NCBI GenBank assembly: GCA_023382385.1
Contig: JAHDVH010000001.1
Location: 615,611-679,610 of the forward strand
DNA length: 64,000 nt
Source: a bacterium
GTDB taxonomy: Bacteria; Electryoneota; RPQS01
Direction: 5' to 3'
How positions within the stretch are numbered: the first letter of the stretch is position 1; each line of letters begins with the position of its first letter. The notes below the pieces were generated by a model. The model worked only from the letters and a program-made list of their open reading frames with translations, had not been told where the DNA came from and searched no databases. Below, piece after piece: positions 2,286 to 27,742 of the stretch. Both the position numbers and the translations under genes were made by a program.

Positions 2286-2323
2286 ATGATTCGATTTGTC
2301 CTTCAGGAAAATCGGTGACACAA

Positions 2324-2380: not shown

Positions 2381-2447
2381 CAAGATGCTTTGCAATTGTT
2401 ATACCGTTATTTACGATTAGTGTGGAACGTGGACGCGTGGGAGAAAA

Positions 2448-3800: not shown

Positions 3801-3836
3801 GGCTTCATCCATTCTTTTCGAGAGGTCATGGAGTGA

Positions 3837-5452: not shown

Positions 5453-8400
5453 TTAGTTGTCAGCCTTCTTGTAGGCAACCTTCACGATGTTCTTGACAGA
5501 CTTGCCGCCACCGGACACTTCGACATTGGCGAGGTAGACACCGTTAGCGACTTCTTCGCCATTGGCGTTGGTACCGTTCCACGTGATCGGAGTATTCGGA
5601 TCGTTCAAGACACCATCCCACACCGTTGTGACATAGCGGCCGGAGAAGTCGTAGATCTTGATCGAGACCATCGCTCCACCCGAGGAACCATCACCCAGCG
5701 GCAGATGGAACGTCGTGTAGCCATCGGCCTTGGTGAACGGATTCGGATAGTTGTATGTCTCGCCGTCAACGATCGGCGACTCTTGACCGACACGGTAGTT
5801 CCACGTCGCCGAAGCACTATTACCGGCGAGGTCACTGACTTCCGCATGCAGGACGTAGTTACCCACCGCCAGCGCAGCCGGACGCAACGTTGCGAAGCCG
5901 GTCAGGCCGTTCGGGGCAATCGAGACGGTCGGGTTGTTGGCCACGTTCTCACCGCCGGCTGTGGTCAGCCACAGGCGAACAGAAGCCGGATCCAGACCCG
6001 TCGTACCGACTTCAGCGAAGTCCACGCGGAACTCAGGCGAACTCAGGATCGGCAGGATAACCGACGGATCAGGCTGGACGGCCGTGAAGACCGGACGACC
6101 CGTATCCACCGTGTAGACCTGCGAACTGCTCGGGAATGCGATACCACCGTAGTACTGACCACCCAGCGTCGCGCGGATGTTCAGCAGGCCGGTCAGGTCA
6201 AAGTTCGCACAGTAGATTGCCGTGTCGCCACTGAAGTTAACAGGCGCATCCACCACGATCGGGGCGTAGATGAGCTGGCCTTCGACCATCATCGCGCCTT
6301 CGAGCGTCATACGAACCGTAGTGCGATCGAACGCGTCACCCACCAACAATGCCTTGAAGCAATGCGGCATGGCCGACACGTGGAACGGAGGCTGCCATAC
6401 GATGCGCGAGCCGCCCTGACCACCGTTGATCACCACGAAGTCCCAGACCCGGCTTTCGGTGTTGCAGACGCGGTCACAGACCGTCAGAACCACCGTATAC
6501 GGACCTTCGGAGAGGTTGCCTGACCAGGTAATCACACCACCGCCGATCGTCGCACCTTCCATCAGATCAGTGTACTGACCCGTACGGTGATTGTGCAGGC
6601 GGAACTCGATACATGCAAGGTCGATACCGCTGTTGCCATCGAGGCTCGTGACACCACGGGTCAACGCTTCACGCCATGCTCCAAGATCAAGCTTGGTGGT
6701 CGAGAAGGTGGTTGCGCCCTTGTCATCTGAACCCTTCAGACTGACGCCACCGATGAAGCCCGACGCCGGAGCGACGTTCTTATCGAGGAGCGTTGCATCG
6801 CCACCAGGCATACCGGCAGCCGAACCGTAGTCTTCGTCATCGAAGAAGCGGCCGCTGATGGTTACCGGCAGGTCACCATTCACCACGCTGCCAGGCAGCG
6901 GGCTGATGGCTTCGACGATCGGCTTGGCGTCATCAACCACCCAGGTCTGCTGGACCTCACGGACGGTGCCGTACTGGTCACGTGCGGTGAGGATGATGCG
7001 CACATCGGTCGGCGTGCCGTTGCCGCCGAAGTTACCGAACGTCGCGGAACCCATCACCGTGAAGACCTGATCAGTGATCTGGTTGCTATAAGCCGGCGTT
7101 ACGTTCAGGTTGACATTGGCCGTCAGGTCGCGCTCGCAGATGCTGCCATTGCAGTCATACAAGCCGATGAAGCGGACACTGATGTCACCGTTGCGCACGT
7201 TGGCGCCGTCATTCTCAGTTACGGTAGCCGTGAAGTCCAACGGATAATCCGGATTCCAGAAACCGTTGTACTGACAGCTGCCTTCTTCAACATCACCGAA
7301 CACGACGATCGGGCCAGTGCTCAGGACGCGGAATGTCCACGTCGTGGTCAGCAGGTTGCCGACACAGTCTTCAGCGTAACCGTTGACCGTCCACAGACCC
7401 GCGATCGGATCCACCAGAACGATCTTGGCACTGGAGGTCGTACGCTCGATGAAGTCTTCAGCATTTTCATAGCGCTGCACCGGACCACGCGGCGGGACAA
7501 CGACGAACCAGACACGGCTTGGAACAATACCAGAACCGTTGTCGTCCAGCGTGCCGTCGCCATCGCGATCGATGCGCGTTTCGCTCTTATTGGATGCGGC
7601 ATCCTTGCCGGATACGTTCAGCATGCGGGTCGCACCCTTTGCCAGGGTAGCGTCGCCGCCGATCGAAGCCAGCGCTCCGCCGCAATCGTCACTGTAACGC
7701 AGTTCAACCACCACGTTGCCTTCGTTCATGACACTGTCACCCGTTGCCGGGAAGTGTGCCACGTCCGTCGGGGCGCAGTTGTCAGCCCAGTAGGTGCGAG
7801 CCGACATGTTGTAACCGTTATCGCTGCCGGACACGAAGAAGATGTTACGGGTCTCAACTTCGATGGACAGACCAGTCTGGCCATCAGGGAACGAACCGTC
7901 CATCGTGAACGTCACTTCGACTTCGTCACGGCCAGCCGGGTCAATGGTCGTAGGACCACTGATACGGATGCGATCCGGAATCGTCACGACGGTGTAGCTG
8001 ATACCGTTCGGGGCAATGGCTGCTCCGCCGACCGTACGCACCGTAAATCCGAAGTCCTGCGGGTTGCCGGGCTGTGATTCAGGATTGAACCATGCACCGC
8101 ATTCCGTGTCATCAAATTCGACAGACGGTCCCGGACAGTCAACATGCCATGTCCAGCTGATATTCTGATGATCCATCGTACCGATGTTGCCAGCATTGTC
8201 CGGCACAGCGATGGTAATCCGGTGATCACCAGGCGTGTAGAACAAGTCAGCAGCTTCACCGGAGTTCGGACCACCGATGGTAAACACGAAGTCATTCTGA
8301 CCGGGCTGTACGATCCGGAAGTTCAGACCTGCCACCGACGTATCAGCCGCGCTGAATTCGAGGTCGTCGATCCAGAAGCGGACCGCACTAAGGTCGACAC

Positions 8401-11400
8401 CGGAAGCGCCGAAGCAGCAGCGTGCCCAGTCACTGATCGAGGCCTGAATGACAGGACGCTCGCCGCAGTTGAACACGGCCTCTTCGAAGTTGATCGGGTC
8501 TTCGTCGTAGCGGGCAACCCAGCCATTCGACCAGTAGACGTCACCGTCGTTGTTGGTGCAATCAGCAACGTCTTCATTCGCAACACCGTCACCGTCATCG
8601 TCAATCGGCGCACCGACCGGCGACACAGGTGTGATGACCGGCGGAACGATATCCACCGTGTAGCGATAGTCATGCGTGCTTTCATTCTCGAGGCAGACGT
8701 TGTTGTAGACGTGCCAGTGTGCACACAGTGTCAGCGGGCAATTCTCGATGCTATAGGAACCGCTCTCCTCATCGTACCAATAGGAGAACAATCCGTCAAT
8801 CAAGCCATCCCACTGCACAGTGATGGAGGCACGCACACCAATCTGAACACCGTTCTCAAGAATCGGTTGGAACGTCAGGGCTTCCGACGTGATTTCATGC
8901 ACGTAGTCGCCGCCGTCATATTCGCAATTGCGGAGATCGAGGTACACGTACTGTGTATCAATTCCGGATTCGCGGTCAATGAGGTCCGCCCACAGGGTGA
9001 CGTTGACGTCGCCGATGTAGGTTGGTTCAGTGTATGCCGTCGGCAGCGTGTTATCCACGTAGAATTCGGTCACGCGAGTCGGACGGTTATCCACGTAGAA
9101 CTGAATCGTATGGACACCCTGCGTCAGGCAGCCGAACCACGGCGGGCAGCTTCCATAGTTGGGATTGAACTCAACCGAGAAGATACCGCTGACGTTATCA
9201 TATTCGATGTCGAACAGTTCGTCGTAGTAGCAGTTGTCGTAGTTGTAACCATCAAGCTCGACAGGCTCACCGTCATTGACGATGCGGATACCGTCCAGCC
9301 AGACGTCCACGCGGTCCGGCGTCGGCGGAGTTTCGCCTTCACCCAGAACCACCCACCACATCGGGGTACAATCAACCACCGGCAGACCGTTGTAATACGG
9401 GTTATCAAACCACGGGTGGCAGTTGTCGCCGCTGTTCATACGAACGAACTCGTCGATCGGGCGAATCGTAGTCAGGAACACACCAAAGCGGATGCGGTCC
9501 GGACAGATATTAGTAAGGTCAGATACATCCCAATCCGGAATCATCTGGAAGTCCACTATTCCGTTTTCGAGGTCGCGGTCGTTGTAGGTGATACCCCACT
9601 CCTGCCACATACCGTTGTATTGACCAGATTCATCATCCGCATCCCAGTTCCAGTAGGCTACAACGACTTGCCATTCTTCCGCGTTTTCCGGAAGCAGGCT
9701 ATTGTCGAAGCGCATACGGAAGGAAGACGGCGCCTGTTCGATATCGATATCGCCAAGATCATCGCTCTGAATTTCTTCAACCGCGGAGATCAAGGTGTAG
9801 TAGTACTGATAGGCCGGAACCATGCTGTGCGTCTGCGACGGCAGATACGGCTGGAACCAGAGGGATCCGCGCCAGCCGGTACCCCAGGCAGGGATCGTGA
9901 CTTCGAGAACACCGTCTTCGCTGACGAGCGTTCCGTTCGATCCACCCTGGTAGTTGGCCTTGTGGATGTCCATCGCGTACGTGACCATCTGGATGAAGAC
10001 ATTATCACCCTGCTGGATCTTGTTGGAGCTGAAGACCTTGATACGTCCGTCTTCATCTTCAAGTTCGCACGGTCTGGTATTCAGCGGCAGTTCGCCGGCA
10101 TAGAAGCTTGAACCAGCTTCCGGTTCGATACACACAACTCCAGCTTCGATGAGGCAGTTTTCCGTATAGTCTTCCAACGTGGTCAGGACCCACGGCTGCA
10201 TTTCACCGTTGCTCGGGACGCGTACCCAGTCAGGCGCCCAGATTTGCGTTTGGGTGGTAACGGACACATCCTGACGGCGCCAGATCGGCGGGTTCGGATC
10301 GATGTTACCACTTTCATCCCATGCCACCGCACGGAACCAGGCGTTCGCAGGATACAGGTCGAATTCAAGCGTCACCTGCCACAGGTGCCAACCGAGCCAG
10401 TCGTTGCACTGATCCTGACGCGTGTTGACGGCGTCACTCAGCGGAATCCACGTCTGACCTTGGTTGATCGAGACCTGGAACTGAACTTGATCTGTCCAAT
10501 TCGGATCGCAATCATCGGTTACTGCGTACAGGTAGTCACTGCAGCCGAACTCGTTGTCATCATCAAAGCCGACGATGCAAGCGCGCTGGAACTGCGAGTC
10601 TTCAATATAGACCGTTATCATGTGCTCACTGCAGTTGCCGGCCTGATCCCACGCGACCACAACCAGTGTGTACCACGAGTTGGGCGTAAGGGCAGTTGTC
10701 GCCAGCTGTGCCGACCACAGAGGACCTTGTTCATCACAAGAAATCAGGTCGGGGCTGGTATCTTCTTCACCGTAGAAGCACACGCGGCTGATATTGCTGT
10801 TGCCGCCGTTGCCAAAGACATCTTCAGCGGTGGCAACCATGTTGATGACTTCGCCCCATGGGATGACCGTCTGATCCGGCGTCAAGTCTCCGTTCACATT
10901 GGTGAACATGACGGTCGGCGGGCAGTTGTCCACACGGACGGAATCAGCGAACAGTACGTAGGCAAGGTTCGATTCCGGAATGGCGTTATCGCTCATCACT
11001 GCACGCAGGCTAATCGTACCGCACGTGCCTTGGAACGCGTTATAGACATTCCATGAATAGACCCAATTACCAGTGACACCAAGGTCCTGATAGGCATAAC
11101 CGATGGACGACCAGAAGTTCGGATCGTTCGGATCGGCCGCCCACTTCCACTCGAACCAGACGGTGTCGATACCGTTGTCGGTGAGTTCGTTATTGAACCG
11201 TACCCACAGATCTTCAGGACCATTCTCGTTGTTGCTATTGAACTCACAGTATCCACCAATCAGGCCACGTGAACTCGGCAGGTTGCCTTGCAGCACCCAT
11301 GGGAGGCTGTGGTCGATCACGATGTTACGGCAGTCAGTAGCGACTGTCACAAGCTGACCGGCGATATCGGCAGAACCGATCGCGCACAGCTGGCCCGGGC

Positions 11401-14400
11401 CTTCCGGCAGAGTAGTCACATCCCAGTAGGAACCTGAACCCTGACAGTTGGACCATTCAGTCTGACCAACATATCCGGAGACCGTGCGGATTTCATGGGT
11501 GTCACCTTGTGCAGTGACAAACAGGAAGCGCACGTAGTCCAGAGTGGGCTCAGAGTTGGCGTAGATACAGATTTCAGTGCCGTGGACATGCGGAGTGCCT
11601 TCCACGTCAAGGAAATCGTTAATCGCGACGATTGAAATATTGGCTTCTTCATCAACGATTGGAGCAGTCCAGTCAATGATGTAGTTGCCCTGCGCATCGT
11701 ACTGATCAGTCTGTTCACAGTAGTCAACCGCAACAGCCGCGAAGTCGTAGTTCCAACCAACCACCAAGTCCGTCGGCACAACCCAGTTGAAGCTGAACGG
11801 CCATGTACGGTCTCCACCAACCTGGATCCAGTTGTTCGGATCGCCGTTGGTGTGGCGGTAGTAGAAGCGCACCTTGCGGATGCTGAAATTGTCTTCAGCT
11901 TCGATATGGAACGTAACCTCAGCACCGCGCTCAAGCTGCGTCACCGGTGTTTGCGTCGGGTCATCCGTGCGCCAGACCGACAGAATCGTCGCGACCGGAG
12001 CCTGATTGTCAACGTTCACCTGCAACAGAGCATTCGGGGCACCGTCGGCACCTATCGTAAGGTTACCGTTCATGTTGCCGAAATTATCTTCTGCGAACGC
12101 ACCAACCCAGTAGGTGCCGTTCAGCAATTCGGTATTCCAGTAACCTTCGACCGGACCAAACAGACCCGGGTTGCCGGTTACGCGTTCGATCACCGTCCAC
12201 GGGCCGTTCGAACCGACTTCGAGGAAAGCGAAGGTTACAGCCACCACGTCTTCATCGTTCACCTGTGCCTGTAGCGTGATATCGCCGTGGAGGAAGATGA
12301 CGGACGAATCGGGCGTGCAATCCGGTGCGGTAATCAGGTCAAAGGCCATCGGCGCCACCGTGTCGGACACGTAGAAGCGCTTGACGTAACCGTTTGCCAT
12401 CAACCACGCCCACTTCTCTTCGACGGTGGTTCCCTGACCGTAGTTCAGGAACTGCGTCCAAGTGAGTTCGTTGCCGGCTTGGTCAGTCGTGAGCACCGCG
12501 ATATCGTACCACAGACCAGGCTGCGGTGCCGGGCAGTCGTTGTGCCACAGGTCGACGTCATTGACCGAGAACGGACCGGTCGAGTCATCACCGATGAAGC
12601 ACCAGCTCCACATTTCGAGCGGATGATCTTCGGCACGCTTGATGAACCAGTGCGCACCGTACGCATCAGCTTCTTCTTCATCAGCGCAAGCACCGATAGT
12701 GAGAAGTGAGAAGCGCTCGACTTCGTCGCCGATTTGCGGCTCAGTCCAGTGGTCACAGGTTTCGAGGTTGTTAATGTTTACACCATTCTCCCAGACATAC
12801 ACACGGGCCATCGGAGCTTGGACATCGAACGACACGGTGTAGATTTCCGTCTCTTCGAGGTTGCCGCACTCGTCTTCCGCCCACGTGCGGACCAGAACGT
12901 CACCGGCCAAGCCAGAGACATCCCAAACCACTGTCCAGAAGACATCGTGATCCAATCCATCCCACCACGGGGCAGGTTCATTGCCACCCCATTCGCACGG
13001 CTCATTACCATCTTCATCCATGCCGATTTCGAACCAGGTGTTACCGCCGTCCACGCTGTACTCAAAGTACACGCGGCTGATGGATTCGTCACCCGTTGCG
13101 GCAAAGCTGTGCAGCCAGATGTCGTGGATATCGCCAAGGGCGCCGAGGCTGACCGTACGGGTCTGCTGATCGACGATCCACAGACCGTCAACTCCCTGCT
13201 CGCGACTACCATCATCACACCAAGGCTCTTCGCTCGTACCGACCGACCACAGCATGCTGGACGGCGGCGTGGTGTCATAGATATAGATATTGACGAAGTG
13301 ACCACCGTCGAAGGCTTCCATAACGCGTGACACGTCAAGGTCACCATTGCCCCAGCGATCCTGAACGATGGCCACCACGTGGATGGAATCGCCACAGGAG
13401 ATGCCGGACAAGTCAAGTTCGACGTAGTGCGGGTTGCACGGACTCGGAATGTATCCACAGGACGTCCACGCATCGGCCTGGTTCGGATGCCAGATATTCT
13501 TGCACCAGACTTGGACGATGTTGTTGGTCTGCGTCGAGTCATTCGGCACGAGGCCGTCCGTCCACTGCACCCAAAGGGTCACAGGATCTTCGTCACCGGC
13601 GTTGACTTCGTACGTGAAGTTGCCTTCCGTTGCGGGTACGCCGTTAACCTCGGTGATATCTCCCACGGGTTCAGCGTGGTCAACATACACCCAGAATTCG
13701 TCAAGCATTTCAGTCGGTTCAATCTGGCAGATGGCGTCGTGTGCGCGCACCCAGACGCGGTAGTAACCGCTCGGGTACTTAGCAGCACCTTCATCTGTCG
13801 TATCGGCCAGCCACCAGTCCAAGCACCAGTTCGGGTTCAGATGCGACGCAAAGGTCGGATCCCACCAGAATGTGTCTACAGCAGTCTCGGCGACGCCGGC
13901 GGCTTGGCTCTCGACGTACAGGACGACGTAGTGAACATCCTGCTCGTAGCTTGCAATGACACCACAGATCTCGACAGACTGATCGCCACCGATCTCCGTC
14001 GTGCCGTCAAGGATGTCATCACGCAGACTATTGTACTCTCCGTCCACACAGTCGTAGCCCGAGTAATCCATATAGAGGATATCGGTGTGCTCCGGAACGG
14101 TCGGGTAGCAGTCGATACAGATCAGGTCGGTGGCTTCTTCACCACACGTCGTCGTGACCACGACGCTGTCTTCATTGCCCTGACAATCCGTGAAGTGGAT
14201 CGTGAAGGTATAGCAGCCATAGTCAAGGACAGGGTACTGACCGCCTTCACCGGATTCGTAACGGTGCTCGAGCCAGTAGTTACACAGGTCACCACCGAAG
14301 TCGAAGTACCATTCGTCGTCGTCACTGCGGGTAAGGTAACCAAAGTTGTAAGCGTAGTTGCCGTCTTCACGAACCGCAGTCATCCACACTTGATCAACAT

Positions 14401-17400: not shown

Positions 17401-20400
17401 TCAGCCATTCGTCTTCGACATAGTCGGCAACGTTGGCGATGAACATCAGAGTATCCAGCGGATTCTGGTAGTTACAGGTTGAGAACTTGTCGCCATCATA
17501 GATCGGCGTGCTGGGAGCCGTGAACTGCGGGACGCCCCATGAATACCAGCCGTGGTTGTAGCACCACAGGTTGGTGCCGTCGGGGATACGGTCGCGGATT
17601 TCAATGGCCATGCAGCAGATCTCAGAGCCGCACTCGAGGTCACGATCCAAATTGCAGTCGCGGTTATAGTCGCCCTGCATATTGTTGTCACCCCAATCGA
17701 CGTCATCGATGGCGTAAGCGCGGAAGCGTACGGAATCCAGCGGGCTGTTGCCGAAGTCATAAAATGCCACGTGAATTTCGTAGTAACCAGCAGCATCCGG
17801 AGTTTCGATGAAACCATCTCCATCACTGAGATAGAGTTCGGCACCCCAGATTTCGGTCTCCTCGTTCAGGTCATTTTCGAGATTGCGCCAGTTGCCGAAG
17901 CGATCCAGAATCTGGAACTGCACACCGGAGATACCACAAGCCATGTCAAGACCGATGTTGTCCTGTACGTTGGCACGCAGCGCGAAGGTTTCGCCTTCGT
18001 TTTTAGTTCCAACGACAACAAACTCATCCCACCACGGTTCGCCAACCCAGCATTCGGTCACCTGCGGCATCGTGTTGTCCACAAAGACACGTGACCAGAT
18101 CGGATCGGAGTCGAACAGCGCGCTGGTATCGTAGGCTACCGCATACAGCCAGTAGTAGCCGGACAACAGATTATTCGTATTCCAACCGGTCGAACTGTAG
18201 TAAGCCAGACCAGCAGAAATTGAGTCAGGATTCGTCGAGCCGCCGATGAAGGTATGGATACCCAGACCCGGAATCGACAGAGAGTCAACGAAGAAGAAGG
18301 CGATTGAATCCACGTCGGCGAACAGCGGCGCGACGGCCTGTACAGGCACCCACTGCGGTTCGTCACAACGGATATTCGTCACGCACATATCCGGCTCGGG
18401 GAAGCAGACCAACGCCATCGGCGCAGTGGTATCGCACTCGACGCGGAATGTGATCACCGGAGTATTCAGGTAATCATAATTTCCGCAGACGTCGAAGGCA
18501 ACCATACGCAGATTATACTGGCCGCTGCCGAGGTTCGCGATATTCCAGTTGATCGAGAAGTCCTGGAAGTAGTTATGGCGAGCCGTAATCGTATCCTGTG
18601 CATCGCCGTGGAGACCACTCAGAATGTTCACCCAGCCCAAGCTCGGATCAGTGTTGCCCGGAATAATAGCATTGGGCGCGTTGAAGAACTTGTACTGGAA
18701 GACACCTTCGTAGAGATCGAACCAGCGATTGGCTACCGTGAACGTATCACCCGGAATCGGATCATAGAAGAGGTCTGGTGCTATATAGTCCTCAGCGATG
18801 ATGAAGATGGTCGAGTCCGTCATCGTGTTCGGATTGAAACAGGCAACCAGTGATCCCTGCGGGCCTCCGCCAGGGCCAGGAATGGCCGCTGTCAAAGTAG
18901 AGATGTAGGCCAGCGGCGCGATATCGTCGGTGATGTCCACCGCGAAGGTATCGATACACTCATGACCGTAGATATCGAACGCGCGGACGCGGACGAAGTA
19001 ACGGTTGGTGCAGGATCCATCCGGATTGACCGGCGGCAGACCGAGCGTGTCTTCAGACGACCACGGCAGATTGCGGATATTCCAGTATGCGTTGAACGGA
19101 TACTCGGTATCCCAAGCCTGACCTTCGTCAGTCAGCAGGTTGACATTCTGCCAGTAGGTATAGGCGTCAACGTTGCCGTCACGGTTTGCATCGAAGGCGT
19201 ATTCAAAGATCACGCTGTCCACACCGTCGAGCGAGTCGTCAATGTGCGTGTAGATCTCGACATAGTCCCATGACGTATAGAGGTCGGTCACCGGCGTATT
19301 CAGACCAGGACGCGAGACATAGGCGTCATTGATGGCCGGACAGGTCCGGTCAAGAATGAAGCTCCACTGATAGTCGCAGCTGTTGCCGAGACGGTCGAGA
19401 ATCGTAACCCGAACAGTATAGCGACCGTCGGAGAGATTCTCGAGATTGTCGGTCGCATCACTCAACGTCAACGGACCTACATCAAAGAACAGCGTATCAT
19501 CGTAGAACGTCTGGGTAAAGCTCGCCACGACGTTATTGAACGGATCGAGCAACTCGATAGTCGAGGAAGACGTGCCGTTCCAGGTCGTGCTGTCCACCGA
19601 GTTGTCCGGACTCAAGTCCAAACCGGATCCGGGGTGTCCATTGGCATCAAACAGAGCGGGATCACGGGCCCAGACGACCAGCGAGTCAAAGTTCGAAAAG
19701 ATGAACAGGCTGTCGTCGGCGGTCAGTTCGTCAAGCACGAAGGAAGATTCGAAGTTCAGATTCTTCCGCACTTGAACCGGTTCGCCGTCCTTCCAGAAGA
19801 ACATCTCGTCACCAAACGGGCAGGATTCATCTTCGAAGAAGGTCAGAGCAAAGTCACCGTCGCAAGTCAACGAATCACGATGTCCGTAGATATCGCTGAT
19901 GAACAGCTTCACATCGTAACGACGCTCGCTAAAGTTATCGGCATACCAGAGGTAGTCGATCCAGACACCGTTCACGTTCATCGAGTCGACGTGCGCGACC
20001 TGCGGCATCGTATTGATGCGGAGGTCGGCGGTGTAGAAGTCCACACCTTCGCCGATTTCGTCGATCGTGCCGTCGTTATCGTTGTCAATACCGTCGCACT
20101 GCAGAACGCTATCCTGCACGAAGATGAAGAAACGAGTCGTGTTATTCTCTTCGTGTGAGTACCAGTACCACTCGCCGGGCGCGGTGTAGATCTTATAGAG
20201 GTTCTCGCGTTCCGTATCCGGCGAGACCTTCTCGTCATTCCACAGTGCCATGTTGTAAGCATCAACATAGTCCGTATCGGAGCAGGCGACCGTGTTCGAA
20301 TCGCAGAGCAGGATCATGCCGGGGTTCGGCTCATTCCAATTCTGGATCGTGAACGAGATCACGCTGTCGAGATCGGCGGCATTGCAGAACTCTTCAGGCA

Positions 20401-23400
20401 TATTGCAGAGCGTATCCGACAGGTGGAGCGACCACCAGTAACGGTTCGACGGGATATTGACGTTGAACAGCGGTCCACCACCCATGTCGTCATAGAGCGG
20501 GATAATGAACACGAGCGAGTCAATATTGTTTCCATAGACGTTGTAGTACACAACATCCGGATACTGCTGCCAGTCAGTTAAGAAACCAGTGAAGTCAATC
20601 CAGACTCCCGACCAATCGTAGACGGTGTCGCCCGGGCTGACCACGCAGTTATTATCCATCAGCACGGCGACGGTCAGGACACTGTCCCAATCCAAGCCGT
20701 AGACGGAGTTTTGCAGAACAAGAACACTATCCACACCGTTGATGTCCGGATTGCCCGGGAAGCCGGTTTCGACTGTGAAGTCACCCCAAGCTACTGACGA
20801 GAGATACTCGGCAGTGAAGGAGGTACCGGTACCGTATTCGACATCAAGGTAGTAGCCGTGTGAACCACCCAAGCCGGTTTGACGCTGGCCCTTGACCGGC
20901 ACGATGACAGTCTGGCCGCAATCGATGAACTGCGGATCACGGACGATCCACTTGGCAACCAGGCGGGTCATTCCATTGCAGTCGGTTTCAATTTCCCACC
21001 AACCCGGCACGTCGTCGTTCATATTGGGGGCAACACCGTAAGCAGGCGCACCACCGCCGAAGTTCGGCGTGAAGGCGGTCCAAGCGTAGGCCGGGCCAAA
21101 GCCGGACAGGTCGGCCATCAACGAGTCGATACGCAGTGTATCTTCAAAGCCGTTAAACAGGCTGTCCATCCAAGCCCAGACGTAGATCCACTCCCCGCTG
21201 TTTCCATCGAACCAGCCCGGCGCGCAGGAATCTGAACCCATCACCCAAACCGAGTCAACATCCGGAACCGTAGTATCCGCGCCGGAGAACTCGAAGATAT
21301 TGAAGTGCGAGCCCATATTACAGGCGACGTCAGTCACATAGATCCACAGCGAATCGAACGTTCCTTCTGCACCAATCAGGTGGCACGAATAGTCCGGATC
21401 AATCCGCAGGGTGTCGGTAATTTGCGAAAGCGTGTCGCCCGGAGTCAGGTAGACACCGCTCGGCGTCCAACCCCAGTAGGCACGGTAGTTTCCGCCACCC
21501 AGATCAACGATCTCATGAGCATGCACGGTGTCATAGGCAGCCTGCATGATCGGATCGCACCAGAAGCGGCTGAAGTTGGCCCAAACATGTTCCGGCGCGC
21601 TGACCAAGTCGGCAGCGTAGCCGTTGATGTCGGCATAGATGTGAACATGTTCGTCACCCGGCGTCACATAGGCGCGCACCGAGTCGTCACCGATAGTATA
21701 GATGAAGTCCACGATCGGCGGCAGCGAATCGTAAATCGCGATCGGCCAGAGAATCGTGTCTGCATTGCCTGCATTGTCGACGATCGCAAAGTTGACAAAG
21801 ATCGTGTCGCCGTTGTGATACGTCGGGTTATTCAGGATGTACAGCGGACCGGGATTGAGGTCATAACACTCCAGACCCCAGATGTAGCATGCCGTGTCAA
21901 GGACGGGTGGCGCAAGGTCAACCTCTGCATAGAGGTTGTTACCTTCCCACGCGTAGTTTGTATCGATGACCGACAGGTCGGCCCACGCGACATTTGCACC
22001 TTCCGGCAAACCGAGGCTCGAGTCATGATTCGCATCAAAGACGGCGATCTTGAGCGTAACCTCAGAGCCAAAGCTCAGGTACGGCAAGTTAGCCGGCAGA
22101 TCCCAGACCGGATTATTCATCAATAGATCTGCAAGGGCGGTATCGCACTCGCAATAGGCATCCGAGGTGAAGATTTCCGGCGGCAGACAGTCACTGCAGA
22201 AGTTCAGCGTGTCCTGCATATAGAGCTCACGGTCGTGGTGACCGATGAGGTCGTGGGCTGCATGGAAGCGGAACCATGGCGCAACTGAATTCAGGCAGAA
22301 GAATGTCGAATCCGGTGTGAAGTTCCAGTACGCGACAACCTTCAGATCCGGACCCGTGCGGTAGGTCACCTCAAGCGTCCAGTCACGGATAAAGCCTTCG
22401 TCAGCACCAAACACGTCGGAGACGATCAGCGTCCAAGTACCGTTCGGATTCTCGCCGTCGAAGTCAGAGAGATTACCAGCAGGCTGCCATGTGCCCGTGA
22501 ACGGGGCAGTGCCCGGCGGTGCGGGGAATGGCAACGCTGCCTCATCATCGAACGTCACGTCGATAAGGTTATCACCCGAATAGGCGATATTCGAAGGCTT
22601 CAAGAGAACTATCGTCCCGTTCGGCGATTCAAGCGAGATATTGAGGTCGCCGATCCACGTATGCTCGATGACATCCAGCGTGATGTTCACGTCGAGGATT
22701 GCACCGGCATCGGGATCATTAATGAACGCGTTCGAGGTGGTATTGTCTTGGATGGGCACAGGTCCGCCGACATACGGATAGACACCCGTGAATGTTCCGA
22801 ACACCACGTAGGAGTCCGGCGGCACGCTGTCCATCGTGGCATCCTGCAACAGCTGGGAGAGGTCCGCCCACAGCTTGGTGGGATCCACACCCACACCTTC
22901 ACCGTCCGGACAATCTACCTCGCTATCCCACACGCAACCGACCAGCGTAAACGCCTGCTCGGGTTCGATACAGAGTGCGAAGTCGTCCATCTCGATACCG
23001 TTGCTGTCCAACAAGGACCATTGCGTCCACAGCGGCTCGTTGACGTCAACTTGCACACAGTCGTCGAAGGTCATCGAATCGCGGACACCTTCCCAACTGA
23101 CGAAACGAATTTCGAAGTCGAGATAGTCGCCGTCGCACCAGATGGTGGCAAGGTCAGAAGAGTCGGCTCGGATGAACCAGTAGTACATGCGGGCCCAACC
23201 AATCTCGTTGCCCAGACCATCTATATAGATGAACCAGTCACCCACAGAGTCCGGCACAACCCAAGGATTCGGGTCGTCTGTGATGCGCTGGAAGTCACCT
23301 TCCACAACGCGCAGCGAGTCAGCCTTGACACCCGGCAGACACTCGGTCAACTCGCAGGTCTCAATGATGGTCGCGCAAACGGTGATGTTGGTATCTTCCG

Positions 23401-26400
23401 GTGCAATCCAGCCCATAATGCTATCCGGTCCGAAGACGTCCGGACAACCGGCCGCCCACGGGTCGCACGGGATGAGGTGCAGGCAGAACGTCGTGTCTTC
23501 GAAGCTGTCCGCTTCGTAGGCATCGCTGAACGCCGGGCTATTATAGCGGCCCGGGTTGCCACCCTGGTCCCACGCTCCGCGGATTACGAAGCAAGCATTA
23601 TAGATGAACGTATCCGGCGGCATATTAAAGATGCGGCCAGTGAGGGTGTATTCCCACTCATTGCCGGCGAGACTCTCCGGTGCCACCGAAATCAACTCAA
23701 CCTGAATGTACGTACCCGGCGCCGGACCATTATTGATCAGCAGACCGGCGGTACTATCAACAAGCGAAATTTGCCAGTTACCAGTGATGTTCCATTGTCC
23801 AACTACTGCACCAGCATAGCTTGAACCATCCACATTGGGATAGGCCGCCGGATCATAGTGTACTTGCTCACTGGCACGAACCGTCAACTGGAAGGTGTCG
23901 CCTTCAGCATAGCGGAAGCCGCAGTCACCGTCCCAGCCATCATTATTAACAGTGGCCGTGCTGTGCGTCGCCGGATCACGGGTGCCAGCGGGGATACCGG
24001 TCCATTCAAGGAACTCGGGATTCTCGTTGTCCACATCCAACTGAGCAACGGTCGTATCGCACACCATGTAGATCGTATCCATGCCGATGATCTGGGCGGA
24101 GTCGCCGTTGATCGTCCAAGCCAGCACAAGGATTGTGTCCTGACCGGTAATCGGCACCAGCATCTGACTGTCGGTTCCGGCATTGATGAACCACGTGCCA
24201 TTCCACATATAGCGGAATTCCATCAGGCCATTGTTCGTCTCGTTATTTTCGAGACGGCCAAAGTAGACGCTGTTTTGTGGCGGGTCTTCGCAGCCTAAGG
24301 AACCGTCGAGATCAACACACTGCGTGACAAACAACGGCTTGCGGACGATGCGGCTGCGGGTCGGAACCGTATTCGTATTACGGAACTCGACCACGAGCGT
24401 GTCGTGATAGACATCATCGTTGAACGGCGCGCCGAAGTTGTCAGCCTGCGTAATCGACAGGGTATCAATCAGGATACGAACGAAGATTGAGTCATGAACC
24501 TGATCGTGAGCCGGATTCAGGATAGCGTCGTAGGCGCCGTTCGAGTCAACCGAACCGGGCGAGAACGCATTCCAAAGCGGCATTTCACCGAACAGATTGA
24601 AGTCAGCAAACGGACCATCTTCGGAGCCGGCAACCGCGTCCAGCGTGTCCGGATCCAGGAAGTAGAACTCAATCGGTCCGACGATACGCGGACAACGGCT
24701 TTCACCAAGCAACGCGATGTTATTGCACGTCGGGGTGATGTTCGTCGCCTGCGTGAAGTTGCTGTCGGAGTCGAAGGCGATCGCGCGGATAATGCCGTAG
24801 GTTCCGGAATTCTCGCAGTCGGCTTCAAAGTCGTCAATCTGGTAATCGTTGTTCGACACGTCAGCCGTATCAATCATACCCAGATCAACCATCAGACAGG
24901 CGCGCCAGATCTTATAGGTCGCGTTGTCCGTTGCCACCGGCGCATTGACCCAAATCGAGTCATAGGCGGCCGCAACGCTGTCTATATTAAGGATGCACGA
25001 GAAATCGAACAATGCGAACTGCGCGCTGGTGTCGGTGCGCATGTAGACGCACAGCGACTCACCCGCGAAGAAGTTCATGTTGCAGACGTTCGATTCATTG
25101 ACGATGTTCACAGAGTCAATCGCCGGTCCAAGACCGTTGATCCACATGCAAACCTGATCGCCGCGGTAGACGTTTCCGGCATTGTCCTGAAGCTCGAGCG
25201 TCAGGCAATAGAGACCGTCCGGCAACAGCTGATTATTCGGACCGCGCATTCCCCACTGGAAGCGGATCGTGTCCGAATTGATGTCATTAAAGAAGAAGGA
25301 AATCGGCTCACAGTAGCGCGTGTGGCTTCCGTTGCTGGGGTCGCCCTGAGTATAATAGATCGAGTCAGTTATGAACGGCCAGACACCCTGCGTATAGATC
25401 GAATCGAGACGAACCGTGTAGCACAGGTCTTCCGCTAAGCAGGTGTCCAGCAGACCCTGCGTGTAGTAGCGGCGCGCCTTGAACTGAACGAAAGGCAGCG
25501 GATCACCATTTGTCCACAGATAAGGATCAACAATGGACGCGGGCGGATAGTCCGGGCCAATCGGATACTGCGGATAGAACGTGGGCGCAACCAGATCCAG
25601 CGGAATAGTTGTCGTCGGGAAGCACGAATCAACCACCGCATAGAGGTTGTTCAACTGCGTATAGCCGTCCAGAATGTCGGTGCTGCCGTCATGATCGGAG
25701 CCAAGCACGGCGTTACAGCCGCCGGCATCCATATAACGGGCCTCGGTGATACCGACCAGCATACCCCACGGGCAGTACTGAGCCAGCATGTTCAGGTTCG
25801 GATCCAGAGAATCCGGCCCGTTCTTGCCATACCATGTAAAGCAGGCACTGGAATCTATCCCAACGTACGGCGAGCGCCAATCCCAGTTAACCGAGTCGGG
25901 CGCGGCCATCGGGTGGTAGTAGTCCAGAGCCGTGATAATCGCACCAGTCGGGGTATCCGGGTTATCATCCGGAATCACGCGAACGTCAAACCCAATCAGG
26001 TAGACTTTCTGCAGAACGTGAATATAGTTCGCCACGTCATAGACCGAGTCCACGCCGTCCAAGTACCAGCGAATGGAATCGGGAGAAAGGTTCGTAAAGG
26101 CAGTCGCCAGCGCGCTATCATAAGGAGAGAAGCGCTGGTTGCAATAGTTGTCAACACCGTCAAACGTCCAGTAGGTGTCAGCGCCCGGCAGCTGCGGCGG
26201 CTGATTATCCAAACAGACATCACAGCCGGTCAGCGTACCCGTCGTATCGCCGAAGTGAACCGGGTTGGACGGATTACCCGCATCGTCAAGCGAATAGACG
26301 TAAATCGTGTCGCCGTTCAGGAGACCTTCCAGAATACAGAACTCGACAGAATCCCAGTGGGTGGAGTCGCACGAAATGGGAATATCAACCCACATCAGGT

Positions 26401-27742
26401 CGTTGGCCGCGCCCGGATTAGGACCGTTGCCAAAACGAACAGAAACCCAAACGCTGTCCAGCGACAGCAGATTGATCGAGTCCTCGTTCATCGGGAACTT
26501 GTAACCCGGCGGGACGATATCATGGAAGTCTACGGCCATCCATGAAACGTCAAAATTCTGCGAAACCGTGTCGCAGTCCTGCCCCCAGCCGTTGAACATC
26601 GGGTTATAAATATCCAGCAGAACACTGTCGCCGTCGCAGTTGTGCGCCGGATTGTTCTGCGTCGGGAAGCCATTCTGAACCGTCGACAGGTAGATACGGA
26701 AAAAGTCGCCGCAGCCGGCGATAGTGTCGTTATCCAGATAGTTCAGCTGAACAATACCGCAGGAGTCGATGCAAACCTGATCGAGCGTCGGCGGCGAGTT
26801 ATCGACCGGCCGCACGCAGGGAATCGAATCCACGAGCACAGCATCAAACGGCCAACCTTCTTCGCCCTGCGGATCCCACTGGTAGTAATAAAGCCAGATG
26901 GTATCATTCGTGCAGGCGTTGACCAAGCCATTTTCATAGCGGCACGGCTGGACGATAATCGTGTCCCCGGCGAAGAGATTTGCGTCAGCCGGATCACACG
27001 TCAATCCTGAACCGTTCCAAAGCAACGTATCACCAACAGGCATCGTGTCTATGGTCGAGGCCAGCGCAGAATCCAGCCACACAGTGTCGTTGATGGCTAC
27101 GATACCGTCAAACGCGATACCGCCGCCTTCACGATACTGGATGAATGAACAGCCGGATTGGATATCACACGGGGCTGCGATCGTGTACGGGTTATCCGCA
27201 CAGACCGTTGTGCCGTTCGGGGCGGGGGTATCGTCCCAGCCCAGCCACGTGATACCAAAACTCAGCAGTTCGCCTGCCGACACGGACACGCCTTCGGGAT
27301 GGAATTCAATCGTGGCAACCACTAAGCAGCTGTCAAGATTCGTGTTCCAGTTAGCCGGATTGATAGGTCCGGCCAGACCCATGTGAGGCGTAACCACCCA
27401 GTCCATCCGGTACATAACGTCGGACGGACCCGCCGGACAATTAACGACCATGGTGGGATAAAGGGCCGGGATCAGCACACCGAGGTCCGGTGTCGGATCC
27501 AAACCAACCGCGGCCGAATCGCAATAGCGATTCACGTAGGCGGCTCGTGCTGTAAGACGCAGCATGTCGCCGAGCTCATCAATGACGCCGTTCGGCGCCA
27601 CGAGCCCGTTAGAATCTTCAATGCATACTGCGACAACCGGTTCGGTCGCATTGATTTGCGCTTCGGCCGACTGCGGCACGAGCGTAAGAATCAGCGCCGA
27701 CAACGCGGTCGTCAGCCACACAAAAAGAGTCTTGGACCTCAT
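5453..27742 (-). CDS. Giant secreted multidomain Ig-like surface protein with T9SS/FlgD-like C-terminal domain (7,429 aa)
   Basis: One uninterrupted 22.3 kb reading frame. The ATG at 27740-27742 has AGGAG nine bases upstream and opens a signal peptide (MRSKTLFVWLTTALSALILT, cleavage near AEA-Q). The body is a chain of roughly 100-130-residue beta-sandwich-like units: a DxTxP entry, then alternating strands, then a WN...L..G.Y.L...A.D..GN end. At least 22 D-x-x-G-N turns can be counted. Embedded modules include a P/Homo B-like domain (about residues 1664-1799), a CBM48/E-set-like stretch (about 3831-3911), and several calcium-type loops such as DNDNDGTIDE, DNDGDGLVDE, DDDGDGVANE and DRDGDGTLDD. 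The last about 105 residues (YNYPNPF..., then IKIYDFSGRYV, then NGEEVANGVYLANVE) are a FlgD-like domain of the type IX sorting-tail kind. It is rich in Asp, Asn, Trp and Cys and poor in Lys. An adhesin or surface-layer fibre is likely, but no catalytic domain was recognised. Confidence 0.9.
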   Translation of the reverse strand: MRSKTLFVWLTTALSALILTLVPQSAEAQINATEPVVAVCIEDSNGLVAPNGVIDELGDMLRLTARAAYVNRYCDSAAVGLDPTPDLGVLIPALYPTMVVNCPAGPSDVMYRMDWVVTPHMGLAGPINPANWNTNLDSCLVVATIEFHPEGVSVSAGELLSFGITWLGWDDTPAPNGTTVCADNPYTIAAPCDIQSGCSFIQYREGGGIAFDGIVAINDTVWLDSALASTIDTMPVGDTLLWNGSGLTCDPADANLFAGDTIIVQPCRYENGLVNACTNDTIWLYYYQWDPQGEEGWPFDAVLVDSIPCVRPVDNSPPTLDQVCIDSCGIVQLNYLDNDTIAGCGDFFRIYLSTVQNGFPTQNNPAHNCDGDSVLLDIYNPMFNGWGQDCDTVSQNFDVSWMAVDFHDIVPPGYKFPMNEDSINLLSLDSVWVSVRFGNGPNPGAANDLMWVDIPISCDSTHWDSVEFCILEGLLNGDTIYVYSLDDAGNPSNPVHFGDTTGTLTGCDVCLDNQPPQLPGADTYWTFDGVDNYCNQRFSPYDSALATAFTNLSPDSIRWYLDGVDSVYDVANYIHVLQKVYLIGFDVRVIPDDNPDTPTGAIITALDYYHPMAAPDSVNWDWRSPYVGIDSSACFTWYGKNGPDSLDPNLNMLAQYCPWGMLVGITEARYMDAGGCNAVLGSDHDGSTDILDGYTQLNNLYAVVDSCFPTTTIPLDLVAPTFYPQYPIGPDYPPASIVDPYLWTNGDPLPFVQFKARRYYTQGLLDTCLAEDLCYTVRLDSIYTQGVWPFITDSIYYTQGDPSNGSHTRYCEPISFFFNDINSDTIRFQWGMRGPNNQLLPDGLYCLTLELQDNAGNVYRGDQVCMWINGLGPAIDSVNIVNESNVCNMNFFAGESLCVYMRTDTSAQFALFDFSCILNIDSVAAAYDSIWVNAPVATDNATYKIWRACLMVDLGMIDTADVSNNDYQIDDFEADCENSGTYGIIRAIAFDSDSNFTQATNITPTCNNIALLGESRCPRIVGPIEFYFLDPDTLDAVAGSEDGPFADFNLFGEMPLWNAFSPGSVDSNGAYDAILNPAHDQVHDSIFVRILIDTLSITQADNFGAPFNDDVYHDTLVVEFRNTNTVPTRSRIVRKPLFVTQCVDLDGSLGCEDPPQNSVYFGRLENNETNNGLMEFRYMWNGTWFINAGTDSQMLVPITGQDTILVLAWTINGDSAQIIGMDTIYMVCDTTVAQLDVDNENPEFLEWTGIPAGTRDPATHSTATVNNDGWDGDCGFRYAEGDTFQLTVRASEQVHYDPAAYPNVDGSSYAGAVVGQWNITGNWQISLVDSTAGLLINNGPAPGTYIQVELISVAPESLAGNEWEYTLTGRIFNMPPDTFIYNACFVIRGAWDQGGNPGRYNSPAFSDAYEADSFEDTTFCLHLIPCDPWAAGCPDVFGPDSIMGWIAPEDTNITVCATIIETCELTECLPGVKADSLRVVEGDFQRITDDPNPWVVPDSVGDWFIYIDGLGNEIGWARMYYWFIRADSSDLATIWCDGDYLDFEIRFVSWEGVRDSMTFDDCVQVDVNEPLWTQWSLLDSNGIEMDDFALCIEPEQAFTLVGCVWDSEVDCPDGEGVGVDPTKLWADLSQLLQDATMDSVPPDSYVVFGTFTGVYPYVGGPVPIQDNTTSNAFINDPDAGAILDVNITLDVIEHTWIGDLNISLESPNGTIVLLKPSNIAYSGDNLIDVTFDDEAALPFPAPPGTAPFTGTWQPAGNLSDFDGENPNGTWTLIVSDVFGADEGFIRDWTLEVTYRTGPDLKVVAYWNFTPDSTFFCLNSVAPWFRFHAAHDLIGHHDRELYMQDTLNFCSDCLPPEIFTSDAYCECDTALADLLMNNPVWDLPANLPYLSFGSEVTLKIAVFDANHDSSLGLPEGANVAWADLSVIDTNYAWEGNNLYAEVDLAPPVLDTACYIWGLECYDLNPGPLYILNNPTYHNGDTIFVNFAIVDNAGNADTILWPIAIYDSLPPIVDFIYTIGDDSVRAYVTPGDEHVHIYADINGYAADLVSAPEHVWANFSRFWCDPIMQAAYDTVHAHEIVDLGGGNYRAYWGWTPSGVYLTPGDTLSQITDTLRIDPDYSCHLIGAEGTFDSLWIYVTDVACNMGSHFNIFEFSGADTTVPDVDSVWVMGSDSCAPGWFDGNSGEWIYVWAWMDSLFNGFEDTLRIDSLMADLSGFGPAYAWTAFTPNFGGGAPAYGVAPNMNDDVPGWWEIETDCNGMTRLVAKWIVRDPQFIDCGQTVIVPVKGQRQTGLGGSHGYYLDVEYGTGTSFTAEYLSSVAWGDFTVETGFPGNPDINGVDSVLVLQNSVYGLDWDSVLTVAVLMDNNCVVSPGDTVYDWSGVWIDFTGFLTDWQQYPDVVYYNVYGNNIDSLVFIIPLYDDMGGGPLFNVNIPSNRYWWSLHLSDTLCNMPEEFCNAADLDSVISFTIQNWNEPNPGMILLCDSNTVACSDTDYVDAYNMALWNDEKVSPDTERENLYKIYTAPGEWYWYSHEENNTTRFFIFVQDSVLQCDGIDNDNDGTIDEIGEGVDFYTADLRINTMPQVAHVDSMNVNGVWIDYLWYADNFSERRYDVKLFISDIYGHRDSLTCDGDFALTFFEDESCPFGDEMFFWKDGEPVQVRKNLNFESSFVLDELTADDSLFIFSNFDSLVVWARDPALFDANGHPGSGLDLSPDNSVDSTTWNGTSSSTIELLDPFNNVVASFTQTFYDDTLFFDVGPLTLSDATDNLENLSDGRYTVRVTILDRLGNSCDYQWSFILDRTCPAINDAYVSRPGLNTPVTDLYTSWDYVEIYTHIDDSLDGVDSVIFEYAFDANRDGNVDAYTYWQNVNLLTDEGQAWDTEYPFNAYWNIRNLPWSSEDTLGLPPVNPDGSCTNRYFVRVRAFDIYGHECIDTFAVDITDDIAPLAYISTLTAAIPGPGGGPQGSLVACFNPNTMTDSTIFIIAEDYIAPDLFYDPIPGDTFTVANRWFDLYEGVFQYKFFNAPNAIIPGNTDPSLGWVNILSGLHGDAQDTITARHNYFQDFSINWNIANLGSGQYNLRMVAFDVCGNYDYLNTPVITFRVECDTTAPMALVCFPEPDMCVTNIRCDEPQWVPVQAVAPLFADVDSIAFFFVDSLSIPGLGIHTFIGGSTNPDSISAGLAYYSSTGWNTNNLLSGYYWLYAVAYDTSALFDSDPIWSRVFVDNTMPQVTECWVGEPWWDEFVVVGTKNEGETFALRANVQDNIGLDMACGISGVQFQILDRFGNWRNLENDLNEETEIWGAELYLSDGDGFIETPDAAGYYEIHVAFYDFGNSPLDSVRFRAYAIDDVDWGDNNMQGDYNRDCNLDRDLECGSEICCMAIEIRDRIPDGTNLWCYNHGWYSWGVPQFTAPSTPIYDGDKFSTCNYQNPLDTLMFIANVADYVEDEWLMYFKFWRADGTTDTFDIPNDYTLNPALPRNADSAIVLQSTYDTVGVIWSNARAWLDSADAADGLVYSRWDFAAYVVDVTGNIEWIGDQNSCYIYTFCPPNTPITDVSYVTNDVNNPENRVRVTEPVEWQDAITDTIEVLYNRTTDPGSNDPEALVLFYVDADAIRNCHGDSVQVFNIELWMMSDDTTLQAVCDGGPIEVFDFFNDFRAWDQFPPDAGTRQYEFGVYFDNSYPPGTYNFSAVVNYIVYAPFANDTLNEGDTDCDGFIEGSDSTRLDLVVRIVNVNEPQVVFCYPPYGDACGAHNTIPLSANDVSDPSYFSGEIDTVWFQRWNGSAWVPVFDAITGLTYDAYPGEAYVRFQFDERELPGMAGWYYERHSNPIYSWYAERDLFPDVAIYIWNTGQFYPMSEVADGFWQTDIYLDHGDNSCYDYSIVIDANDNNVWDEPGIDRWIDDPRNIDWNDQEPIAYDRCSDDQEQQYGESSSAYSTICLCEYVINFNSLSVGDGHHEFRTVVGWHDELAYHVIENPAPGDSLHVFFVDNDAPVATHDIEFDNFWVNGGRCDESGNVHFVTDIQPIDGNYNLVVEDICAVIYQVSLTSNPELDSSWVNVDTVYASGGQGWIEAWASFWTAYDPTADNIDNDGDGLVDETYDVQGGDGRGEENTLFYSRSIVVDHCGNTYIAAAESIWVDVSEARACISLVGDVEPGVNGNDVVVIPDNRDLVIVATNQDYAGFDPSILGVFQYRTLNPIGPWTNIQADTLSNDTVRHVGNTLTATWDLLSFFQETGNDPEGWYQLRVIAIDTVGNTDLCDNDVCYITIRLNDIQPAARIELYQVINANEEIASSCTSDSILYIHAADPYCLQAIFAPTNIDTGLASLTFQYAAVNNGVPSNWRNIETIWDQINHGLDGDTTRCVYFQPQPQDVGDQEIFWLRVIVEDYNGNDTSDVKVLYVDALPPTGTSTAQGTAEVATACGDRCWFEIQPGQAIVWVDFDPDQLSNEINVDQVWMTAVREDGNYAYNFGYLTRSDDDEWYFDFGGDLCNYWLEHRYESGEGGQYPVLDYGCYTFTIHFTDCQGNEDSVVVTTTCGEEATDLICIDCYPTVPEHTDILYMDYSGYDCVDGEYNSLRDDILDGTTEIGGDQSVEICGVIASYEQDVHYVVLYVESQAAGVAETAVDTFWWDPTFASHLNPNWCLDWWLADTTDEGAAKYPSGYYRVWVRAHDAICQIEPTEMLDEFWVYVDHAEPVGDITEVNGVPATEGNFTYEVNAGDEDPVTLWVQWTDGLVPNDSTQTNNIVQVWCKNIWHPNQADAWTSCGYIPSPCNPHYVELDLSGISCGDSIHVVAIVQDRWGNGDLDVSRVMEAFDGGHFVNIYIYDTTPPSSMLWSVGTSEEPWCDDGSREQGVDGLWIVDQQTRTVSLGALGDIHDIWLHSFAATGDESISRVYFEYSVDGGNTWFEIGMDEDGNEPCEWGGNEPAPWWDGLDHDVFWTVVWDVSGLAGDVLVRTWAEDECGNLEETEIYTVSFDVQAPMARVYVWENGVNINNLETCDHWTEPQIGDEVERFSLLTIGACADEEEADAYGAHWFIKRAEDHPLEMWSWCFIGDDSTGPFSVNDVDLWHNDCPAPQPGLWYDIAVLTTDQAGNELTWTQFLNYGQGTTVEEKWAWLMANGYVKRFYVSDTVAPMAFDLITAPDCTPDSSVIFLHGDITLQAQVNDEDVVAVTFAFLEVGSNGPWTVIERVTGNPGLFGPVEGYWNTELLNGTYWVGAFAEDNFGNMNGNLTIGADGAPNALLQVNVDNQAPVATILSVWRTDDPTQTPVTQLERGAEVTFHIEAEDNFSIRKVRFYYRHTNGDPNNWIQVGGDRTWPFSFNWVVPTDLVVGWNYDFAAVAVDYCEQTDQYDAQGNYIIDWTAPIVDEEANISIVAINDFLDVEGTPHVHGTEICIYANSEPTLDYVRFLFVTAQGDTHEIRTVSGYVGQTEWSNCQGSGSYWDVTTLPEGPGQLCAIGSADIAGQLVTVATDCRNIVIDHSLPWVLQGNLPSSRGLIGGYCEFNSNNENGPEDLWVRFNNELTDNGIDTVWFEWKWAADPNDPNFWSSIGYAYQDLGVTGNWVYSWNVYNAFQGTCGTISLRAVMSDNAIPESNLAYVLFADSVRVDNCPPTVMFTNVNGDLTPDQTVIPWGEVINMVATAEDVFGNGGNSNISRVCFYGEEDTSPDLISCDEQGPLWSAQLATTALTPNSWYTLVVVAWDQAGNCSEHMITVYIEDSQFQRACIVGFDDDNEFGCSDYLYAVTDDCDPNWTDQVQFQVSINQGQTWIPLSDAVNTRQDQCNDWLGWHLWQVTLEFDLYPANAWFRAVAWDESGNIDPNPPIWRRQDVSVTTQTQIWAPDWVRVPSNGEMQPWVLTTLEDYTENCLIEAGVVCIEPEAGSSFYAGELPLNTRPCELEDEDGRIKVFSSNKIQQGDNVFIQMVTYAMDIHKANYQGGSNGTLVSEDGVLEVTIPAWGTGWRGSLWFQPYLPSQTHSMVPAYQYYYTLISAVEEIQSDDLGDIDIEQAPSSFRMRFDNSLLPENAEEWQVVVAYWNWDADDESGQYNGMWQEWGITYNDRDLENGIVDFQMIPDWDVSDLTNICPDRIRFGVFLTTIRPIDEFVRMNSGDNCHPWFDNPYYNGLPVVDCTPMWWVVLGEGETPPTPDRVDVWLDGIRIVNDGEPVELDGYNYDNCYYDELFDIEYDNVSGIFSVEFNPNYGSCPPWFGCLTQGVHTIQFYVDNRPTRVTEFYVDNTLPTAYTEPTYIGDVNVTLWADLIDRESGIDTQYVYLDLRNCEYDGGDYVHEITSEALTFQPILENGVQIGVRASITVQWDGLIDGLFSYWYDEESGSYSIENCPLTLCAHWHVYNNVCLENESTHDYRYTVDIVPPVITPVSPVGAPIDDDGDGVANEDVADCTNNDGDVYWSNGWVARYDEDPINFEEAVFNCGERPVIQASISDWARCCFGASGVDLSAVRFWIDDLEFSAADTSVAGLNFRIVQPGQNDFVFTIGGPNSGEAADLFYTPGDHRITIAVPDNAGNIGTMDHQNISWTWHVDCPGPSVEFDDTECGAWFNPESQPGNPQDFGFTVRTVGGAAIAPNGISYTVVTIPDRIRISGPTTIDPAGRDEVEVTFTMDGSFPDGQTGLSIEVETRNIFFVSGSDNGYNMSARTYWADNCAPTDVAHFPATGDSVMNEGNVVVELRYSDDCGGALASIGGDATLAKGATRMLNVSGKDAASNKSETRIDRDGDGTLDDNGSGIVPSRVWFVVVPPRGPVQRYENAEDFIERTTSSAKIVLVDPIAGLWTVNGYAEDCVGNLLTTTWTFRVLSTGPIVVFGDVEEGSCQYNGFWNPDYPLDFTATVTENDGANVRNGDISVRFIGLYDCNGSICERDLTANVNLNVTPAYSNQITDQVFTVMGSATFGNFGGNGTPTDVRIILTARDQYGTVREVQQTWVVDDAKPIVEAISPLPGSVVNGDLPVTISGRFFDDEDYGSAAGMPGGDATLLDKNVAPASGFIGGVSLKGSDDKGATTFSTTKLDLGAWREALTRGVTSLDGNSGIDLACIEFRLHNHRTGQYTDLMEGATIGGGVITWSGNLSEGPYTVVLTVCDRVCNTESRVWDFVVINGGQGGSRIVWQPPFHVSAMPHCFKALLVGDAFDRTTVRMTLEGAMMVEGQLIYAPIVVDAPVNFSGDTAIYCANFDLTGLLNIRATLGGQYYGGIAFPSSSQVYTVDTGRPVFTAVQPDPSVILPILSSPEFRVDFAEVGTTGLDPASVRLWLTTAGGENVANNPTVSIAPNGLTGFATLRPAALAVGNYVLHAEVSDLAGNSASATWNYRVGQESPIVDGETYNYPNPFTKADGYTTFHLPLGDGSSGGAMVSIKIYDFSGRYVTTVWDGVLNDPNTPITWNGTNANGEEVANGVYLANVEVSGGGKSVKNIVKVAYKKADN

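Follow-up and report, generated by a model that had tools for sequence, protein, structure and literature searches.

A 7,429-residue modular protein with a PorU-type tail and its PorV-OmpA neighbour, a candidate T9SS surface-display pair of an uncultured bacterium

The window analysed here is a stretch of 64,000 nucleotides that lies within a 0.99-Mb contig (JAHDVH010000001.1, Electryoneota) of a 2.9-Mb genome. It harbours a very large gene, hereafter called the giant gene, followed 67 bp downstream by a gene for a PorV-family barrel fused to an OmpA domain (PorV-OmpA) and by a third gene for an FG-GAP protein (Table 1). An earlier note on this DNA, made from the sequence alone, had singled out the giant gene at 5453-27742. 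That gene is real, but taking it alone understated the system, as the PorV-OmpA gene downstream probably belongs to it.

Table 1. Coordinates, strand and supporting evidence of the features described in the window
Feature	Position	Strand	Evidence
Giant T9SS-exported multi-module protein (predicted export)	5453..27742	(-)	Single frame; end-to-end orthologs in the order
Sec signal peptide, aa 1-28 (MRSKTLFVWLTTALSALILTLVPQSAEA, followed by Q)	27659..27742	(-)	Predicted by reading the sequence; start backed by Shine-Dalgarno
Proprotein-convertase P-domain, aa 1687-1791, lineage-specific insertion	22370..22684	(-)	PF01483 E 1.2e-13
PorU-type Ig + T9SS C-terminal sorting domain, aa 7289-7421	5480..5878	(-)	NF033707, TIGR04183, PDB 6za2
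PorV/PorQ-family outer-membrane barrel fused to OmpA domain, 495 aa	3898..5385	(-)	NF033709 + PF00691
OmpA-type peptidoglycan-binding domain of the fusion	3925..4212	(-)	Conserved Asp + Arg of NxxLSxxRA motif; solved OmpA-family chains match
Secreted FG-GAP beta-propeller protein, 454 aa, predicted	2448..3812	(-)	PF01839 E 6e-45; orthologs
Sigma-70-like promoter TTGACA-17-TATATT, conserved	28097..28125	(-)	Aligned upstream regions of G000, G001, G002, G011
Leader element GTATAGAACTTTTTTGAACTTAGG, conserved, unique in genome	28057..28080	(-)	Aligned upstream regions; genome search

The giant gene runs from ATG to TAA without internal stops and codes for a protein of 823.7 kDa with a pI of 4.05, rich in Asp (10.1%), Asn (6.6%), Trp (3.4%) and Cys (2.4%). 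These values confirm the uninterrupted frame, the mass of about 0.8 MDa and the very acidic, Asn/Asp/Trp/Cys-rich composition announced earlier, to which we add the minus strand, as none had been given. The protein is among the larger known bacterial proteins, and its host is uncultured. Lys residues number 51 out of 7,429 (0.7%), five of which are found within the last 16 residues; they are scarce in the orthologs as well.

The frame remains open for 73 codons farther upstream, to position 27961. A Shine-Dalgarno sequence (CAGGAG, 27752-27757), conserved in the relatives whose upstream regions were aligned with that of the window's genome (G000), namely G001, G002 and G011, is found just 5' of the ATG at 27742, which is therefore the likely start. 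Longer starts at 27913 and 27961 were ruled out, since the similarity upstream of 27742 corresponds to the conserved Shine-Dalgarno sequence and leader. The signal peptide proposed earlier for the N-terminus is of the Sec type, as read from the sequence. The giant gene has a long leader and promoter region (27760-28125) that contains GTATAGAACTTTTTTGAACTTAGG as well as a T-rich stretch resembling a hairpin; an Rfam search of the leader gave no match. Regulation of the long operon by this leader is possible. A DnaA-box-like sequence, TTATCCACA, lies in the leader at 27850-27858; it is present in G001 but not in G002.

Orthologs in one frame were identified in three other genomes, G001 (7,799 aa), G002 (7,289 aa) and G011 (7,834 aa), with the upstream extension counted in; their end-to-end identities to the giant are 71, 52 and 45%, respectively. 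Most remaining genomes of the order harbour giant fragments, at contig ends, and gene order around the giant is fixed across the relatives in the order. Because of the three one-frame orthologs, an assembly artefact or a frameshift fusion, the first of which the earlier note had named as fatal to its proposal, was ruled out. Differences between G000 and G001 amount to 0.22, 0.17 and 0.47 at codon positions 1, 2 and 3, with the third-position excess found in all coding 500-aa bins of the giant, and these comparisons indicate purifying selection along its whole length; the earlier note had proposed that the gene is under selection. One third of the aligned columns are invariant across the order, foremost those of Cys, Asp and Trp. 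The giant gene is present in a single copy. In one genome (G008), it has shrunk to 2,310 aa, comprising the signal peptide and the C-terminal third, with both the tail and the PorV-OmpA neighbour retained.

The motif D-x-x-G-N, at least 22 copies of which had been counted earlier as module ends, occurs 26 times in the giant versus about 4 times (maximum 10) in shuffled sequences. Where consecutive motifs are 90-150 residues apart, their median spacing is 129 residues, which suggests an estimated 57-60 modules; we thus estimate that the giant consists of roughly 60 beta-sandwich modules in tandem, each some 130 aa long. Over 74 windows of 120 aa, the best internal match has a median of 21.6 bits and a maximum of 33, whereas the median against an ortholog in another family is 78.6 bits, and this ortholog scores above every paralog in 74/74 windows. 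Judging from these comparisons, the modules are conserved by position and barely alike between them, which bears out the great divergence of the units reported earlier. The weak internal matches rule out near-identical repeat expansion.

Pfam recognises a P-domain, weak Big_3_3, Big_7 and Big_13 signatures and the FlgD-like tail, and little else, and no ligand-binding domain common to all orthologs is recognisable. Two AlphaFold2 models from the C-terminal third, one of aa 4951-5900 and one of aa 6280-7429, are all-beta with low confidence; as their pLDDT values are just 52 and 58, we draw only the fold class from them. Foldseek searches with these models returned chains of tandem Ig, FN3 and macroglobulin domains, together with 6xi3, an adhesin extender, and 9flw, a fragment of the grappling hook protein GhpA. 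A PDB sequence search with the same two segments gave no match except PorU. The profiles, models and fold matches support the secreted chain of Ig-like beta-sandwiches described in the earlier note. No described giant family matching the protein from end to end was found, an outcome that leaves that description standing. An adhesin or surface fibre, its functional proposal, is still the best guess, with the reservation that no ligand-binding module was identified.

The giant also bears traces of exchange and local change. A mosaic segment (18470-21390 of the window, aa ~2120-3090) is nearer to its counterpart in G002, which belongs to another genus, than to that of the congener G001. Trees of two blocks conflict at 100/100, with G000 grouping with G002 for aa 2120-3090 and with G001 for aa 4000-4900. 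As they disagree with full support, about 1,000 codons were exchanged between genera. Most orthologs, among them those in G002, G003, G005 and G011, are devoid of the P-domain, the alignments of these four jumping from about aa 1647 to 1803, and G001 seemingly harbours a second P-domain (G001:C1:249630-250031). Tandem copies matching aa ~6500-6690 of the giant are found in the orthologs of G012 and G004 (L045, L026 and L028), an expansion absent from the window. Such mosaicism would suit a surface protein under changing contact.

The earlier description of a FlgD/T9SS-like tail was confirmed by profile matches and can be made more specific. On the PorU profile NF033707, the C-terminal 133 residues reach 60 bits (E 9e-17), versus 14 and 23 bits for two canonical T9SS substrates encoded in this genome, and they match the sequence of the PorU crystal structure (PDB 6za2) with an E value of 5e-9. 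The match is confined to these 133 residues, with no full-length NF033707 match (>420 bits required) of the kind expected for a PorU sortase. The tail scores 30.8 bits on TIGR04183 (cut-off 23) and thus qualifies as a type A sorting domain. On PF18962 it reaches 18-22 bits, below the cut-off of 27, and at 21.5 bits it is the weakest of the 126 matches of the genome; on the type B domain CHU_C (PF13585), it reaches 13.5 bits for a cut-off of 27. In a tree of the tails, the giants group with other barrel-adjacent tails with weak support (80/59). According to a review (PMC10202324), PorU itself retains its sorting domain, through which it remains attached to PorV, and PorZ likewise binds PorQ by a retained sorting domain.

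The barrel part of the PorV-OmpA protein (aa 45-313) belongs to the PorV/PorQ family with 120.7 bits on NF033709 (cut-off 90), and aa 392-487 belong to the OmpA family, with 80.2 bits on PF00691 (E 1.5e-22, cut-off 27.2). The protein also matches the PorE profile NF052230 with 65 bits, in its OmpA part only and far from the >600 bits required of a full-length PorE. In nine genomes of the order, the PorV-OmpA gene immediately follows that of the giant, and its product is 57-84% identical among relatives. Of the 13 genomes of the order, the fusion was found in 12, and the remaining one is 56% complete. Within the order, the FG-GAP gene is conserved as the third gene, with G008 as the exception. 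Literature searches confined to open-licence papers turned up none that describes a PorV-OmpA fusion in such a role. By analogy, PorV-OmpA is probably the anchor and partner of the giant.

The genome harbours T9SS machinery, namely SprA (SprA_N, 131 bits), PorU (650 bits) and the PorV family, the latter with about a dozen genes. GldL and GldM were not found, in searches that lacked a firm positive control. PorU, a PorU2-like protein and several FlgD-tailed proteins are each encoded directly before a PorV-family barrel, and such pairs of FlgD-tail gene and following barrel gene recur at L070, L071, L077, L079 and L082. This pairing may represent a general scheme of cargo-specific barrels.

The sequences also place the pair in an unrelated lineage, family f106. 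Among 386 genomes scanned by profile search, all candidates checked outside the order and f106 were barrel-only or OmpA-only proteins, never both. The fusion is present in all seven genomes examined of the phylum of f106. Intact giants of 4,937, 4,956 and 4,922 aa are found in G387, G388 and G390, respectively, with the fusion directly after them; G136 and G386, of the same phylum, were left out of the tally of intact and interrupted giants. In G389, the giant consists of two overlapping frames owing to a frame shift, and in G274 one in-frame stop (G274:C34, near 21600) splits it into two frames (L119/L120), by error or decay. The f106 giants harbour D-x-x-G-N modules, their PorU-type tails score 52 and 48 bits, and some of their stretches are 24% identical to the giant of the window (E ~2e-9). 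Their fusion partner scores 99.5 bits on the PorV-family profile (cut-off 90), with thrombospondin type 3 repeats between the barrel and an OmpA part that matches the PorE profile. No FG-GAP gene was seen beside the pair in f106. Because the other f106 neighbours differ from those of the window, the giant and PorV-OmpA form a conserved unit.

We somewhat favour the view that these two genes constitute a surface-display system, in which a T9SS-exported fibre or adhesin would be held non-covalently by a peptidoglycan-tethered barrel. Sec would carry the giant across the inner membrane and SprA, the T9SS translocon, across the outer one; the dedicated barrel from the adjacent gene would receive its PorU-type sorting domain, kept uncleaved as in PorU-PorV. 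The periplasmic OmpA domain of the barrel would then grip peptidoglycan, fixing on the cell a chain of about 60 modules that might form a fibre of some 0.2 micrometre if fully extended (our estimate), probably for adhesion or cell-cell contact. Export, interaction between tail and barrel, non-cleavage, tethering and the adhesive role are all inferences on our part; the pairing of the tail with a peptidoglycan-held barrel is proposed because of the analogy with SprB-SprF and PorP-PorE-PG1035. More tentatively, we put forward the broader proposal that giant multi-module fibres which bypass sortase cleavage and are tethered to peptidoglycan by PorV-OmpA represent a novel mode of T9SS display, found in two or more bacterial phyla.

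Alternatively, the giant might be an ordinary type A cargo whose tail is cleaved by PorU, with ensuing linkage to lipopolysaccharide or release, and with PorV-OmpA as a general shuttle rather than a cargo-specific anchor. The TIGR04183 match and a genome that has PorU, PorV and numerous sorting-domain proteins and PorV-family genes are in line with this. We nevertheless regard it as unlikely, given that the tail ranks last of the 126 on PF18962 and scores far better on PorU, and that the fusion accompanies the giant in two lineages and was not found elsewhere among the candidates tested. A component of a structural surface layer, sheath or stalk rather than an adhesin would agree with the strict position conservation of every module, the many conserved Cys, Asp and Trp residues, the single gene copy and neighbouring genes for envelope polysaccharide precursors. 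This possibility is improbable, as about two thirds of the giant are missing in G008 and as the internal swaps and P-domain insertion better fit a changeable contact surface.

Giant T9SS protein and adjacent barrel also recall SprB-SprF (PMC9143113), and the giant could be a mobile gliding adhesin that the T9SS motor propels along the cell surface. Such a function is very improbable: GldM and GldL were not detected, within the limits of the searches mentioned above, the tail is of the PorU/type A kind rather than type B, a fixed protein is what an OmpA tether would suggest, and mobile type B proteins are proposed to be devoid of a PorE link (PMC9143113). Lastly, there is scant chance of a predatory or prey-capture appendage like the T9SS-secreted hook GhpA of Aureispira (PMC11205867), since the match of the C-terminal model to 9flw (Foldseek E 4e-14) is generic, with complement, contactin and axonemal Ig chains scoring equal or higher, PorU is the sole sequence match in the PDB for the segments searched, and no hook-like unit was seen.

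A two-gene display system held by PorV-OmpA would bear on how T9SS cargos without covalent lipopolysaccharide linkage remain cell-bound. With barrel and peptidoglycan anchor in one protein, paired with giants in two unrelated lineages, it offers a clean test case, and the fusion provides a handle to search for similar systems. Each module of this 7,400-residue protein is individually conserved, in contrast with the near-identical repeats of many giant adhesins. Huge bacterial surface proteins of >5,000 residues with Ig-like repeats (Big_13, Big_3_3) and, like the giant, an inferred surface role have been surveyed (PMC11573180); the portion of that survey considered here does not describe the pair of giant and PorV-OmpA. 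GhpA (PDB 9flw) is also a very large T9SS-secreted chain of tandem beta-sandwiches, with no sequence relation to the giant found in the PDB search of aa 4951-5900 and 6280-7429 and a generic similarity of fold.

The closest tail sequence is that of the PorU-PorV attachment complex, in which the protein with the C-terminal domain is likewise encoded beside a PorV-family barrel, but the giant has no matched sortase domain and its barrel is fused to OmpA. In SprB-SprF and PorP-PorE-PG1035, surface proteins are anchored by barrels, with PorE as the peptidoglycan anchor (PMC9143113). SprB of Flavobacterium johnsoniae is, like the giant, a very large T9SS surface protein whose gene neighbours that of its own outer-membrane barrel; SprB has a type B domain, a PorP-like partner without peptidoglycan domain and a gliding motor, whereas the system described here combines a PorU-type tail with a PorV-family barrel carrying OmpA, and no motor was found. 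In Porphyromonas gingivalis, a surface protein similarly sits on a barrel tied to peptidoglycan via an OmpA-like domain, but PorP-PorE-PG1035 are three separate proteins with a type B cargo, whereas barrel and OmpA domain form one polypeptide in the window. On these analogies, the arrangement is best read as a counterpart of SprB-SprF and PorP-PorE in which a single protein, PorV-OmpA, would provide the anchor.
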